45,963 nt of DNA. Source: an uncultured Saprospiraceae bacterium (GTDB lineage Bacteria; Bacteroidota; Bacteroidia; Chitinophagales; Saprospiraceae). Positions 17,954 to 29,133 of this stretch are shown one piece after another. The stretch lies in NCBI GenBank assembly GCA_938008185.1, contig CALLLR010000022.1, positions 1-45,963 on the forward strand. The letters are read 5' to 3'. The notes beneath the pieces were generated by a model. It was not told the DNA's origin. It searched no databases and saw only the letters and a program-made list of their open reading frames with translations. Both the position numbers and the translations under genes were made by a program. The first letter of the stretch is position 1, and the number at the start of each line of letters is the position of its first letter.

Positions 17954-20275
17954 ATGAAAAAAGCCCTTATCACCGGTATCACCGGCCAAGACGGAGCCTA
18001 CCTCTCCGAACTCCTACTCTCCAAAGGATACGAAGTCCACGGCATCAAACGTCGTGCCTCCTCCTTTAACACCGCACGCATCGACCACCTCTACCAGGAT
18101 CCACACGTAGACAATCGGAATTTCATCCTCCACTACGGAGACCTCACCGATTCCACCAATCTCATCCGCATCATTCAGGAAATTCAACCTGACGAAATTT
18201 ACAACCTCGGTGCCATGTCGCACGTAAAGGTAAGTTTTGACGCACCGGAATATACCGCGGATGTAGATGGAGTAGGGACGTTGCGTATTTTAGAAGCCGT
18301 TCGTTTATTGGGATTGGCCAAAAAAACGAAAATTTATCAGGCTTCTACTTCTGAATTATACGGATTGGTACAGGAAGTACCACAAAAAGAAACGACCCCG
18401 TTTTACCCACGCTCGCCGTACGCCGTCGCAAAAATGTACGCGTACTGGATTACGGTCAATTACCGGGAAGCATACGATATGTTTGCTTGTAACGGCATCC
18501 TCTTCAATCACGAAACCGTAGCGGGTTTTATGCCGGTAATTTTTAAAATTGGAAAAGAAGGGCCCATTGATATCAAACCAATTGAAGAGGTCGTAATCAA
18601 TCATACTGGAAATCCCAATGGAATAAATAAATCGACTGCGAAATACCAGGAAACATTTGTAACAGAAGATTTATACGTTTGGGATAATAATGAATGGACA
18701 AAAGTATTATACGCATCTGGTTATCCGCACGATAAGAACAATGATAACAAAAGACCACGGTATCTAGTAGCAAAAAATGCTGCTTATCTTGCGACTAGTA
18801 GCCATGTTTGTATTATGGAAAATGGTGCGGAGAAAGAATTTGGAGAGATAGAAAAAGGAGATAAGGTAAACTTGATTGACTACCCGGAAACAGGCGGTAC
18901 AACGAACGATCTATCGATAGCGGAGTCTCGACTTTTGGGATTCATTGTCGGAGATGGTTACAGAAAAGGACATAAACTACAGTTAACTTCTAAAAATAAA
19001 GAAAAGTTAATTCCTTACGCAGATATCTGGTTAGCTATCAATGCCGAAAATTCTGTGCATTTCTGGGAAACTAAATCAGGATTTGATGAAGATAATGTTA
19101 TCTGGCAAGTACGACTGAATAATGCTACCAAATGGATTAGTCAGTTTTCTATTTACGACGAGCAGCGTAGAAAAAGAATCCCCCAGCAGATACTCAACGG
19201 AAACAAAAAAAATCAAATGGCTTTTTTGGAGGGTTATAATCATGCTGATGGACTAAAGGCGAATCCTTGTAATTATAAGTTCAAAAATTTTAAAACTAAT
19301 TCCGCAACGTTGGCTGCTGGCTTGATCTTTTTATTACAAAAAACAACCCGGCAGGATTATAATATCAACATCGAAGAAACGGATAAGTGGGGTGGCCACC
19401 AAATGTACTATTCAATTAATATTTCCAGTGATTCCACGGATGGACAAAATCATCGAAATTCAAAAAATAAAAAAGAAACGGTGCTCGAATTAGTTGGTCA
19501 GGGCGTCAGTCAGCGTGCTATCCAACGGGATACTGGTATCAGTCGTACCTTTATCAGAAAAGTACAAAATGGATACGAGCCAACAGGATTACATCCGCTG
19601 GAAATTGAAAAAAATAGCATAAAAAAAATTATAGAATTAGATCAGTATGATGGTTGGTTTTTTGATTTGACTACTGAAAGCGGAACCTTCCACTGTGGAA
19701 TTGGTCAGGGACATGTGCATAATAGCCCATTAAGAGGAGAGACTTTTGTTACAAGAAAAATCACCCGTGCCGTCGCAAAAATTGCTCTCGGTTTACAAGA
19801 CAAACTTTACCTCGGTAACATGGACGCCAAACGGGATTGGGGACACGCCAAAGACTACGTCGAGTGCATGTGGAAAATCCTTCAACAAGATAAACCCGAA
19901 GATTGGGTGATTGCTACTGGCGTGACTACCAGTGTACGGGATTTTGTCCGCATGTCTTTTAAAGAAATTGGCGTAGAACTAGAATTTAGAGGGAAAGATG
20001 AACAGGAAGTAGCCATTATTAAGTCGACAACAAAACCAGAATATCAGGCAAAAGTAGGACAGGAAGTCGTCGCCGTCGATCCGGCGTACTATCGTCCCAC
20101 GGAAGTAGAACTTCTAATCGGTGATTCTTCTAAAGCACAACAAAAATTAAACTGGACTCCGAAGTATGATCTGGAAGCCCTTTGCAGCGAAATGGTCGCC
20201 GCGGATATTGAATTGTTTAAGCGGGATCAGATTTTGAAGGAGGCGGGGTTTGAGGTGAAGAATGAGTATGAGTAG
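17954..20275 (+). CDS. gmd: GDP-mannose 4,6-dehydratase precursor containing an intein
   Basis: [45 protein letters not shown]...[32 protein letters not shown] | intein | [47 protein letters not shown]. Removing 403 aa leaves a standard 370-aa Gmd. Confidence 0.96.
18515..19723 (+). mobile_element. Intein (403 aa) with LAGLIDADG homing endonuclease, inserted in gmd
   Basis: Block [14 protein letters not shown] at codon 188; block [15 protein letters not shown]...EIEKGDKV (TxxH); LAGLIDADG motifs LLGFIVGDG (18932-18958) and [10 protein letters not shown] (19223-19252); block [21 protein letters not shown]; block G GHVHN followed by +1 Ser. Confidence 0.93.
19475..19578 (+). other. Helix-turn-helix-like DNA-binding segment inside the intein
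   Basis: [35 protein letters not shown]: classic HTH pattern ([21 protein letters not shown]), lying between the second LAGLIDADG motif and block F. Confidence 0.65.
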
Positions 20276-22991: not shown

Positions 22992-25900
22992 ATGCTATTC
23001 GCAGCTGAAACCCTATTGCGCTTTTTAAATCAGGAATTTTCCGGTTATGTCCTTAGTGATGCCTACAGAAGAGCAGAGAACGGAGCTTACTATAAATTTG
23101 TAAATAGTGGTCCCAATTATTATCAGACAACCGTTAATTCAGGTACTTTGAAACGCCGGACGGTTACCCTGAGAGCAGAAAAAAAAGGCCGAAATTTAGT
23201 GCCTGAGGTAGTATGTAATTGTTCTACCAGAAGATGCAGGCATCAGGCAATTTTGCTTTACCTGCTGATTAAAGAAGATAAACAAGTTAGTGAGGAACCA
23301 TCCGTTATTGAATCTTATGAATTAGAGAGTCCCAATCCTGCGACGTTTAGGGCGCTAGATTTTAATAGTGACGAAATTATTGGAATTCTGAGCGAGGATA
23401 CCAGAGATTTTGACTTTGATCGAAAGATAAACTTTAGTGGATTTTTTAATGATCCGGATACGCTGATTATTAATTTAAAAATTGGAAATTTAGCGGGCTG
23501 GCCACATAAATATACAGATCACACCATCATTCTCAAAAAAACAGAAACGGAAATAAAAATAAAATGTGAAAACTGTAAGGAGAAAACGACCCAACTTTGC
23601 AGCCATCAATTCATAGCTATTGATGAGGCCTTCGAAAAAATAGGTTTCATGTTTGATGATAATGAATGGCAAAAATTTTACAATGACATCACCAGCGAAA
23701 TTGCAGACCGGGCGAAGGTCCCGCCTCATTTGGTCGGGAAATATTTTGAAATTTTTTTTTCAGAAAGAGCATGGTCCTATAAGAAAAAATCAAAGAATTT
23801 ACTTGGCATTGACTGGATTAAAAAAATAAATGACAAAATTTCAAACCATAAACGGGTTCGCAACCAAAAACAAAAAGAATTAACGGAACAATTAGAAAAG
23901 GGCAAACATAAAATTTCAGCTTACTATTGGACTACGTTAAATCACTGGCACGAATATAGAGAAATAACCGGTCTATGCTTTTGTACTGGTAAAGCACTGA
24001 AAACAAAGGAAGGAATACAAAAAAGCAGTCGTAAGCTTACCGATACACCGGAAGTCCTTTCAGATGCTCAAATTGAACTGGCTAATAAACTATTAAGAGC
24101 TACTAAACTGAAAAATGATCAGGAACGTTTTGCATCTGCAAAGGCATTGATTCTCGAAAATGTCGATTTGTTTAATCAGGCATATCATTATGTTCACCCT
24201 AATTTTCCAGCTGCAACAACGCCAAGGACAAGTGAGGCTTTTATGACCAAAATTTATCCCGAAGTTATAGAAATAGAATTAGAGGCAATTGCCAAAGATG
24301 GAGTTACTCACCTAAACCGAAAAGCTATAATTGAAAAACATGATTTTTCCTTTGGAAAAATTAAATTTGTTAATGAGTTTTTCTGTGCCGATGACGAATT
24401 TATTTATCTTTTTAAAAACAGGCAATACGAACTTATTTTTGAATTATTTAAAAGTACAGAAAGCAACGTTATTGAAATGCTCGTAGATACTGGTTCTGCC
24501 CGCCAGCTTCTGGCTAATTTACGTACCATCTGTGAGGTCAAAATCGAAGATTCCGAGTTGGAAATACAGGAGAAAATAATTAAGGAGGCAGGTTATCAGA
24601 TTGTTCTTCGCGAAGTAGGAGCATTCATAACTTTTGAACCCCGCCTGATTTTTGGTGACGAAACCTTTAATATCTTTGATTCAGAATTAACCTATCTTAA
24701 TAACGGGGTGCTTTACACTATTGATTCTCAGAAAAGAGATTTTCTCTTATCTTTTATTCAACAGGCACACCCAAACTTTAATGTTAAAAATCAGGTGCAG
24801 GAATACGTCTATCTTTCTGTCACAGAAATGATGAATAACTACTGGTTTCTGCATTTTGTCGAAGCGTGTGCGGCTAATGAAATTGAGATTCTTGGTCAAA
24901 AAGAACTGAGTAAATTTAATTATTCTAAACACCGTGCTAAAACTTATTCGCATCTAAAATCGGGTATCGATTGGTTCGAGGTGGATATGGGTGTCTCTTT
25001 TGGTAAGGAAAAAATAAAAACGGCCGACTGGATCAAAGCACTTCGTAATAACGAATCTTTTATTATCCTTAAAGATGGCTCAATGGGAATGCTGCCCGAA
25101 GAATGGCTGGCGCAGGCCCGGAAAATACTCGCGGTAGCTGATGTTGAAAAGGGAGACATCAAAATTTCTAAATACCGCTTCAATATCATTGACGATCTTT
25201 TTGAAGAACTGGATGATAAAAAAATTATTAAAGAACTGGCCGAAAAGAAAAAAAGATTAGCGGAGTACGATACTGATAAAAAATATAAATTACCTGAAAC
25301 GGTAACGGCAGACCTCCGGCCTTATCAAAAACATGGATTCGCCTGGCTGAAATTTTTGGACGAATCGGGTTTTGGGGGTATCCTGGCCGATGATATGGGA
25401 TTGGGAAAAACCCTTCAGGTGATCTCTTTGTTAGCGGATCAAAAAAATAAAAACAGTTCAATGGTGATTGTTCCACGCAGCTTGTTGTTTAACTGGGCGG
25501 CGGAATTAGACAAGTTTTGTCCTAAACTTACCTACGTTATCCATCATGGACCTAACCGGATAAAAGAGATCGAAGCGTTGACAAAAAGAGACCTGGTGAT
25601 TTCTACTTACGATACCACCGCAGCGGACATCGAATTGTTCCGGCACTATCGGTTTAACTATATTGTACTCGACGAATCACAGGCCATCAAAAATCCGGAT
25701 TCTAAACGCTACAAAGCAATGCGGCTGTTACAGTCGGATAATAAAATTGCGATGACTGGTACACCGATTGAAAATAACACATTTGATTTGTACGCACAGC
25801 TTAGTTTTACTTCGCCGGGATTATTGGGAACGAAAACTTCTTTTCGTAACAACTTCGCCATCCCCATCGACAACGATGGTAATCAGGAGGCCGCTAATTT

Positions 25901-26690
25901 GTTAAGAAAACTAATTCATCCTTTTATTTTACGGCGTACCAAAGAACAGGTCGCCAACGATCTGCCGGATAAAACCGAGACTGTATTGTTTTGTGAAATG
26001 GCACCCGCACAACGAAAACTTTACGATAAACTCAAACAACAAATCAAACTCGATCTGGAAGAGGAGGTAGAAGAAAAAGGACTGGCCAAATCTAAATTTA
26101 AAATTCTGGATGGACTTTTACGCCTCCGCCAAATGTGCAATTCTCCTTTGTTAGTCAATCCTGCCTTTACTGGAAAAAATGCAGAATCCGTAAAAATAAA
26201 AGTGCTATTACAAAATATAACCGAAGAGCTGGACCAACATAACGCGCTGGTTTTTTCTCAATTCACCAGCCTGTTATCCATCGTACGGGCAGAATTGGAC
26301 AAGCGGGAAATCCCATATGCTTATCTCGATGGTAGCACCAGAAAGCGGCAGGAGGAGGTCGCAAAATTTATGGAAAATAGTGAAATTAAAATTTTCTTAA
26401 TCAGCATCAAAGCCGGAAATACGGGACTCAATCTCACCAAGGCCGACTACGTCTACATCCTCGATCCCTGGTGGAATCCCGCCGTGGAAGCTCAGGCCAT
26501 TGATCGTACGCACCGTATCGGTCAGGATAAGCAAGTGTTTGCTTACAAGCTGATTTGTAAAGATTCCATCGAAGAAAAAATTCTGAAACTCCAGGAAAAA
26601 AAGAAAAAACTGGCACAAGATCTTATTCGGACGGATGAGAATATTTTGAAGAGTCTGGATAAAGATACGCTGATGTCGCTTTTTGATTAG
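22992..26690 (+). CDS. SNF2-family helicase with SWIM-type zinc finger
   Basis: VCNCSTRRCRHQ (CxC..CxH SWIM); LRPYQKHGFAWLKFLDESGFGGILADDMGLGKTLQVISLL; VLDESQAIKNP; MTGTPIENN; AGNTGLNLTKADYVYILDPWWNPAVEAQAIDRTHRIGQ. Confidence 0.95.
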   Translation: MLFAAETLLRFLNQEFSGYVLSDAYRRAENGAYYKFVNSGPNYYQTTVNSGTLKRRTVTLRAEKKGRNLVPEVVCNCSTRRCRHQAILLYLLIKEDKQVSEEPSVIESYELESPNPATFRALDFNSDEIIGILSEDTRDFDFDRKINFSGFFNDPDTLIINLKIGNLAGWPHKYTDHTIILKKTETEIKIKCENCKEKTTQLCSHQFIAIDEAFEKIGFMFDDNEWQKFYNDITSEIADRAKVPPHLVGKYFEIFFSERAWSYKKKSKNLLGIDWIKKINDKISNHKRVRNQKQKELTEQLEKGKHKISAYYWTTLNHWHEYREITGLCFCTGKALKTKEGIQKSSRKLTDTPEVLSDAQIELANKLLRATKLKNDQERFASAKALILENVDLFNQAYHYVHPNFPAATTPRTSEAFMTKIYPEVIEIELEAIAKDGVTHLNRKAIIEKHDFSFGKIKFVNEFFCADDEFIYLFKNRQYELIFELFKSTESNVIEMLVDTGSARQLLANLRTICEVKIEDSELEIQEKIIKEAGYQIVLREVGAFITFEPRLIFGDETFNIFDSELTYLNNGVLYTIDSQKRDFLLSFIQQAHPNFNVKNQVQEYVYLSVTEMMNNYWFLHFVEACAANEIEILGQKELSKFNYSKHRAKTYSHLKSGIDWFEVDMGVSFGKEKIKTADWIKALRNNESFIILKDGSMGMLPEEWLAQARKILAVADVEKGDIKISKYRFNIIDDLFEELDDKKIIKELAEKKKRLAEYDTDKKYKLPETVTADLRPYQKHGFAWLKFLDESGFGGILADDMGLGKTLQVISLLADQKNKNSSMVIVPRSLLFNWAAELDKFCPKLTYVIHHGPNRIKEIEALTKRDLVISTYDTTAADIELFRHYRFNYIVLDESQAIKNPDSKRYKAMRLLQSDNKIAMTGTPIENNTFDLYAQLSFTSPGLLGTKTSFRNNFAIPIDNDGNQEAANLLRKLIHPFILRRTKEQVANDLPDKTETVLFCEMAPAQRKLYDKLKQQIKLDLEEEVEEKGLAKSKFKILDGLLRLRQMCNSPLLVNPAFTGKNAESVKIKVLLQNITEELDQHNALVFSQFTSLLSIVRAELDKREIPYAYLDGSTRKRQEEVAKFMENSEIKIFLISIKAGNTGLNLTKADYVYILDPWWNPAVEAQAIDRTHRIGQDKQVFAYKLICKDSIEEKILKLQEKKKKLAQDLIRTDENILKSLDKDTLMSLFD

Positions 26691-27596: not shown

Positions 27597-28160
27597 ATGA
27601 CTAGTTACTTACAACGTAAATTATTTAGTGTTGCCGAATATTACCAACTCGCCCAGGTTGGTATATTAAACGAATCTGATCGGGTAGAACTGATTAATGG
27701 TGAAATTATTAAGATGAGTCCAATTAATAGCCCACACGGAGGTATGGTCAATCGACTTACCCGTATTTTGTATAAAATGTTGGATGATCAGTTAATGATC
27801 ACCGTTCAGAATCCGATTAGCTTAGATAACTATTCTGAGCCAGAGCCTGATTTAGTAGTTGCTAAATTTGATTCGGATGATTACGCGAAGAAACATCCCT
27901 GTCCGGCAGATGTATTGTTAATTATTGAAGTGTCTGATTCGACGCTTGAAAAAGATCGTTCCGTAAAAAGTCCGCTTTATGCCAAGGCAGGAATAAAAGA
28001 ATATTGGATCGTTGATTTGGTGAACAAAAAAATAGAAATTTACAGAGAACCCGTTGAAGATGAGTATCATTTTAAGCAGATAATTTCTAAAAAAGATCAA
28101 ATCGTAACGGCAGACTTCAAGGATTTGAATATTCTTTATCAGACAATTTTTCCCAAATAA
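27597..28160 (+). CDS. Uma2-family (DUF820) PD-(D/E)XK-like protein
   Basis: [87 protein letters not shown]. Confidence 0.92.
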
Positions 28161-28197
28161 TTTTACATTCAGGTTGAAAATTATAGTTAATAAAATC

Positions 28198-29133
28198 ATG
28201 AAAAAAGACGCTACTATCTACATCGCCGGCCATCGGGGAATGGTTGGCTCCGCGCTTCAGCGGAAACTACAAAGCGAAGGATTTACCAACTTCCTTACCC
28301 GCACCTCCCGCGAGCTCGATCTGCGTAATCAGGCCGCTGTCAACGAATTTTTTGCCACCGAAAAGCCAGATTACGTTTTCCTGGCCGCCGCAAAAGTAGG
28401 CGGTATTCTGGCCAATAATACCTACCGCGGTGAGTTTATTTACGACAACCTGATGATTCAAAACAACGTTATTCATGCTTCACACGTGAATGGTGTTAAA
28501 AAACTGATGTTTCTCGGCTCTTCCTGTATTTATCCCAAACTCGCTCCGCAGCCGCTCCGGGAAGATTATTTACTAACCGGACCGTTAGAACCGACCAACG
28601 AGCCTTACGCTATCGCAAAAATTGCGGGCATTAAGTTGTGCGATGCGTATCGTTCACAATATGGAAGTGATTTTATTTCCGTCATGCCGACCAACCTCTA
28701 CGGCCCGAACGATAATTATGACCTGGAAAAGTCTCATGTGCTACCGGCTTTGATGCGTAAATTTATTGAAGCCAAAAGAGAAAATAAACCAACCGTCGTA
28801 ATGTGGGGAACCGGTAGTCCAAAGCGAGAATTCCTGCACGTAGATGACCTGGCTGATGCGTGTTATTACCTGATGCAAAATTACAGCGAAGAAGGATTGG
28901 TGAATATTGGAACCGGAGTCGACGTGTCTATTTTATCATTAGCTCAACTTATCAAGGAAACCGTTGGCTATCATGGCGTAATCAAGCACGATCTAACCAA
29001 ACCCGACGGTACGCCCCGAAAATTAATGACCATCGATAAACTAAAAGGACTGGGATGGGAACCGAGTATTACTTTGGAAGAAGGAGTGAGAATGGTTTAT
29101 GAGGAGGTGAGGGAGGAAGCATGGGCGGTGTAG
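28198..29133 (+). CDS. fcl: GDP-L-fucose synthase
   Basis: [101 protein letters not shown]. The Met at 28198 is preferred over the ORF-track start at 28174. Confidence 0.96.

Follow-up and report, generated by a model that had tools for sequence, protein, structure and literature searches.

Here we describe an intein that begins with threonine and interrupts gmd, the gene for GDP-mannose 4,6-dehydratase (Gmd), in an uncultured Saprospiraceae bacterium; the gene lies within a 45,963-nucleotide stretch (GenBank assembly GCA_938008185.1, contig CALLLR010000022.1, positions 1 to 45,963; hereafter the window). Judging from sequence comparison, it is probable that the insert is a full-length homing intein whose splicing is initiated by Thr1, that has spread by homing and with phages, and on whose removal GDP-fucose synthesis in its host depends. 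An initial annotation of the window had proposed an endonuclease-bearing intein in gmd, and that part of its account holds; what it overlooked is the Thr1 start and the clade of Thr1 inteins shared between phages and bacteria.

Results

The window intein starts with Thr at residue 1 instead of the usual Cys or Ser; to our knowledge, inteins are almost always described with one of those two residues at this position. Sorted by residue 1, gmd inteins mostly carry Cys, some carry Ser, and one set carries Thr. This Thr1 set numbers 14, every one in gmd at the same site: five are bacterial (the window, L068 and L028 in Bacteroidota, L022 in Liptonbacteria and L029 in Omnitrophota) and nine lie on viral contigs (L054, L056, L058, L092, L093, L096, L098, L099 and L140). 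Further searches, together with an independent pattern for the N-terminal junction, GILFNHE/T (a slash marks a splice junction throughout), converged on the same members. The 13 Thr1 inteins placed in a tree of inteins group as one clade (SH-like approximate likelihood ratio test, 96). His72, within the motif S.Y.H, is found in 13/13 Thr1 inteins, and in the fourteenth member too, versus 0/29 Cys1 and 0/6 Ser1 gmd inteins; an extra helix-turn-helix segment, which gmd inteins of the Cys1 and Ser1 types lack, is present throughout the Thr1 clade except in L099, whose intein is only 340 residues long. As traits of a single clade, these observations are statistically non-independent. No natural Thr1 intein, characterised or described, was found in the open-access literature, which leaves aside subscription journals and InBase; as far as that literature shows, what is new is how widely the gmd site is occupied, together with the Thr1 clade, the distribution of that clade across phages and bacteria, and the clade-specific His72.

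The interrupted open reading frame (17954-20275, + strand) encodes 773 residues, of which both ends are Gmd and the middle 403 are not, and it scores 579 bits against the TIGR01472 gmd profile (cut-off 415) over two stretches that flank the insert. The exact boundaries given in the initial annotation are confirmed to the base: codons 188-590 correspond to 18515-19723, inserted in frame between Glu187 and Ser at the conserved Gmd motif NHE/SP, and joining codons 1-187 to 591-773 restores a 370-residue Gmd that matches the E. coli GMD structure 1db3 unbroken, gapless at the junction (E 5e-171). In two congeneric genomes the Gmds are intein-free and 96% and 95% identical to the window Gmd, with 261/300 (87%) and 252/300 (84%) identical positions over 300 bp of junction DNA and zero bases added or lost, and a third congener has a partial, uninterrupted Gmd spanning the insertion site. 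Given these intact congener Gmds with an exact empty site, the insertion is, by parsimony, probably a recent gain in the window lineage. A stable domain insertion in Gmd, which the initial annotation had named among the findings that would overturn its own reading, was rejected on the uninterrupted congener Gmds, and a chimeric assembly on the identical exact boundary in unrelated records. The G+C content of the intein (37%) equals the window mean (37%), and that of the Gmd extein is 46%. The features of the gene, by position in the window, are as follows.

17954..18514, + strand: gmd N-extein, codons 1-187, ending CNGILFNHE; TIGR01472 at 1-187, whole-Gmd identity to congeners 95-96%.
18515..19723, + strand: Thr1 intein, 403 residues, TVAGFMPV...GHVHN; same-site homologues, PDB profile matches and the structural model described below.
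18515..18538, + strand: block A with Thr1, TVAGFMPV; Thr1 in 14/14 members, Cys or Ser in other gmd inteins.
18728..18730, + strand: His72 (within SGYPH), shared by every Thr1 member and a candidate for the activating base.
18794..18805, + strand: block B TxxH, Thr94-Ser-Ser-His97; His97 invariant in 32/32 inteins, Thr94 in at least 90%.
18932..18958, + strand: LAGLIDADG motif 1, LLGFIVGDG; alignment, and a weak PF14528 match from residue 139.
19223..19252, + strand: LAGLIDADG motif 2; alignment.
19463..19567, + strand: helix-turn-helix segment, about residues 317-351; sub-threshold HTH_28/HTH_23, three model helices at 317-351, gap in the non-Thr1 rows of the alignment.
19646..19699, + strand: block F, Asp384 at F:4; W381, D384, T387, F392 and G395 invariant in 32 inteins.
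19700..19723, + strand: block G, IGQGHVHN, with penultimate His402 and Asn403; HN invariant in the 32 inteins.
19724..20275, + strand: gmd C-extein, starting with Ser+1; second TIGR01472 stretch, aligned to 1db3.

When the insert was used as a single query, a Pfam scan gave no PF14890 match, a LAGLIDADG_3 match below cut-off (E 0.013) and sub-threshold HTH_28 and HTH_23, while the PDB returned a weak match to PI-PkoII. Searches of the intein alone against Pfam, NCBIfam, phages, plasmids, GTDB and IMG/VR yielded nothing useful, and a sample of the phylum yielded a 24% partial match alone. Relatives were found by a DNA pattern for the gmd C-terminal splice junction, HN/SP.RGE[TN]FVTRK, and the profile of an alignment of 32 same-site gmd inteins was run against the PDB, where it reached solved inteins (TliVMA, 1.6e-18; PI-PkoII, 1e-14; the TFIIB intein, 1e-9); PF14890 is matched by 2/32 of these relatives. 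An AlphaFold2 model of the insert (predicted local distance difference test score 89) has the TliVMA intein as its top Foldseek match (E 8e-19), with PI-PfuI, PI-PkoII and I-DmoI also matched. The alignment contains 18 invariant columns, splicing residues among them, and the window intein has two LAGLIDADG motifs with both catalytic Asp residues kept. The profile check suggested in the initial annotation was negative for the single sequence and positive through the relatives' profile and the structure; the intein blocks, HN end, Ser+1 and LAGLIDADG motifs with their Asp residues that it had listed are all present. On profile and modelled fold, the insert is an intein of the Hint superfamily with a LAGLIDADG endonuclease. 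The closest solved structures by both measures, the archaeal VMA inteins (TliVMA, 7qss/7qsu; PhoVMA, 7qst), also combine a Hint domain with a LAGLIDADG endonuclease, but they sit in another host protein (V-ATPase), are about 14% identical in structural alignment, and start with Cys1 (solved as C1A mutants).

The HN/SP junction pattern was matched by 37 stretches from GTDB species genomes and by 7 from IMG/VR, and wherever the N-junction is readable it lies at one codon boundary, FNHE/X...HN/SP. Inteins at the gmd site are found on phage contigs and in at least 11 bacterial phyla (Cyanobacteriota, Pseudomonadota, Myxococcota, Bacteroidota, Campylobacterota, Planctomycetota, Actinomycetota, Thermodesulfobacteriota, Atribacterota, Omnitrophota and Liptoniibacteriota), many of the hosts being metagenome-assembled genomes (MAGs) in which binning errors are possible; within the order of the window, 2/399 sampled genomes carry this intein. 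The view of gmd as an unusual, previously unseen intein host does not survive this breadth, nor the type II gmd intein published in 2022 from Thermosynechococcus (PMC9403480). Two Thermosynechococcus inteins, L044 (MAG M46_R2017_013, a strain in that report) and L039, have the identical NHE/SP boundary. These inteins share with the window intein the host gene, the LAGLIDADG homing domain and full-length homology (L039 aligned throughout), but are only about 32% identical to it, start with Cys1 rather than Thr1, and are without the helix-turn-helix segment and His72.

Other occupants of the site vary in state. In Cys1 inteins of Laspinema, Oscillatoria and Phormidium (L027, L031, L032, L033, L035 and L049), both LAGLIDADG motifs are lost (LLGV.VAAAE; FLDGFKAVSPL) and every splicing residue is kept, as would be expected late in the homing cycle. 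A Sulfurovum MAG (L076; G651, contig 16) has a gmd intein region with stops and frame changes, through either decay of the intein or long-read errors, and an Omnitrophota MAG (G653; L070 and L080) has one gmd that bears an intein and another that is uninterrupted. One viral Gmd (L098, 4246-7572) carries two inteins, the Thr1 intein in its usual place and another, starting with Cys1, that ends in GN and lies inside the catalytic QA/STSEL motif.

In its splicing residues, the window intein presents class 1 features (nucleophile Thr1, T94/H97, D384 at F:4, H402-N403 and Ser+1) and is most likely a class 1 intein using Thr1 oxyester chemistry. Class 1 has been defined both to include Ser1, Thr1 or Cys1 (PMC5222942) and with Cys or Ser only (PMC7664689). 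Class 3 (WCT type: Trp at B:12, Cys at F:4, Thr at G:5) is excluded by the Cys99, Asp384 and Val401 found there, and class 2 (KlbA type: Ala1, Ser at G:6, Cys+1) by Thr1, His402 and Ser+1. Since Thr1 and Ser+1 stand in a class 1 anatomy, both ester intermediates would be oxyesters. Cysteine-less class 1 inteins with Ser1 and Ser+1 (PolB16 OarG, PI-TkoII and Mja TFIIB; PMC10189870) have in common with the window intein the oxygen nucleophiles at both junctions, the block B, F and G residues, and a His upstream of block B; they differ in having Ser1 instead of Thr1, and the clade's His72 usually follows Pro, not Arg or Lys. The published alignment of cysteine-less inteins covers Ser1/Ser+1 and Ser1/Thr+1 only, and Ser1 inteins require an additional NX histidine upstream of block B (PMC10189870). 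His72 lies in that region, 22-25 residues ahead of the block B His, versus 22 in Mja TFIIB, but in BLOSUM and hhalign alignments with Mja TFIIB it falls two positions from the NX His; its possible equivalence to that residue is a lead.

The distribution of the Thr1 inteins does not follow that of their hosts. In a Gmd tree that includes intein-free Gmds, Thr1 hosts appear in several unrelated places, with 8 label changes, 6 of which well-supported branches make unavoidable; a tree forcing these hosts together is rejected (approximately unbiased test, p 4e-78). Some viral Gmds sit on long branches, so their own placement is unsure; the bacterial hosts alone are already separate, Bacteroidota versus Liptonbacteria and Omnitrophota, and the window Gmd is placed among its intein-free congeners. 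One intein clade on scattered Gmd hosts implies that Thr1 inteins moved by horizontal homing. This argument rests on the trees and not on raw identities, which alone are no proof of transfer (of 78 pairs, only 18 are more alike in the intein than in Gmd). The LAGLIDADG acidic residues are kept across the clade, L058 having Glu for Asp. Phages are probable carriers, with at least a weak phage-terminase match in five of the viral records and a match above cut-off in three. Phage inteins have been put forward as vehicles of intein spread in work on mycobacteriophages (PMC5050341), likewise with phage and bacterial alleles of one family; the shared host here is a sugar-nucleotide gene in phages and bacteria.

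The window encodes a surface-polysaccharide cluster, with homologues of FnlA, a WbcJ-like reductase and a WecB-type epimerase, and includes the enzyme that acts after Gmd.

28174..29133, + strand: GDP-L-fucose synthase (Fcl); 58% identity to E. coli Fcl over 5-312, E 1e-114.

In the established pathway, GDP-fucose is made by the successive action of Gmd and Fcl. A search of the genome (281 contigs, 64% complete) showed no gmd besides the interrupted one, and with Fcl encoded nearby in the window it is plausible that the supply of GDP-fucose depends on splicing if no second gmd exists, as the initial annotation had suggested. Elsewhere in this genome, contig 55 (L134, 162-2954) carries a second intein, with Cys1, in the replicative helicase DnaB (DLRE/CITGDS...HN/SGAIEQDAD). 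Just downstream of the polysaccharide genes is a large SNF2-family helicase gene (22992-26690), which lies near gmd in a congener too, and a putative endonuclease gene of the Uma2 family is found at 27597-28160; in a congener a Uma2 gene adjoins gmd.

Discussion

The reading that we favour is of a full-length Thr1 homing intein in gmd, with an endonuclease that looks intact. The 773-residue precursor would fold, and Thr1 would undergo an N-O acyl shift with activation from His97 and Asp384, and perhaps also from the clade-specific His72; Ser+1 would then take the N-extein, and Asn403 would cyclise to release a 370-residue Gmd and a 403-residue intein. The free intein would cut intein-less gmd alleles at the site, an activity to which the horizontal spread lends indirect support, with repair copying the intein in, and phage-borne gmd genes would ferry it between bacterial lineages. 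With no other gmd seen, GDP-fucose synthesis would require splicing, and a regulatory role would be unnecessary. Whether Thr1 gmd inteins further constitute a mechanistically distinct subclass, with a threonine oxyester start enabled by His72, cysteine independence at both junctions and mobility among phage and bacterial gmd genes, is a proposition that we consider evenly balanced. Several points weigh against the favoured account: Thr is a weaker and bulkier nucleophile than Cys or Ser, the Pfam intein profile is blind to the window sequence, the viral origin of contigs other than those with terminase matches rests on IMG/VR classification, and another copy of gmd, free of the intein, may have escaped so incomplete an assembly.

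The steric hindrance of Thr leaves some room for a class 2-like route, in which Ser+1 attacks the N-terminal junction directly and Thr1 is merely tolerated rather than the nucleophile; Thr1 is nevertheless conserved in 14/14 inteins from phages to Bacteroidota, unexpected for a dispensable position, and with the class 2 hallmarks (Ala1, Ser at G:6, Cys+1) absent, we judge this route unlikely. It is quite improbable that the element is competent in homing and impaired in splicing, with the precursor accumulating or being cleaved and gmd effectively inactive in the strain. The incomplete assembly, the unproven Thr1 chemistry and the related Sulfurovum MAG with its frame-broken gmd intein would fit such a state, but the splicing residues and both Gmd halves are intact across a clade of very different hosts, phages included, in which a dead splicing domain would be expected to decay. 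The initial annotation had gone further and raised conditional splicing as a switch for fucosylated surface polysaccharide, a role with which the single gmd of the assembly, the nearby fcl and the conditional splicing known for other inteins (for example PMC5790916 and PMC7360933) could be reconciled. We found nothing to support such control: the sporadic distribution, the recent gain relative to congeners and the intact endonuclease mark it as a homing element rather than a retained regulator, and redox control is disfavoured by junctions that have no Cys, leaving the switch a very remote prospect.

For intein biology, a conserved natural Thr1 lineage offers a direct test of the chemistry that the Hint fold tolerates, and Thr1 inteins are candidates for a cysteine-independent splicing tool. 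The gmd site itself amounts to a natural experiment, with many phyla, phage and cellular alleles, empty-site congeners and alleles with decayed endonucleases, in which the homing cycle can be traced in a gene of metabolism and not of replication.
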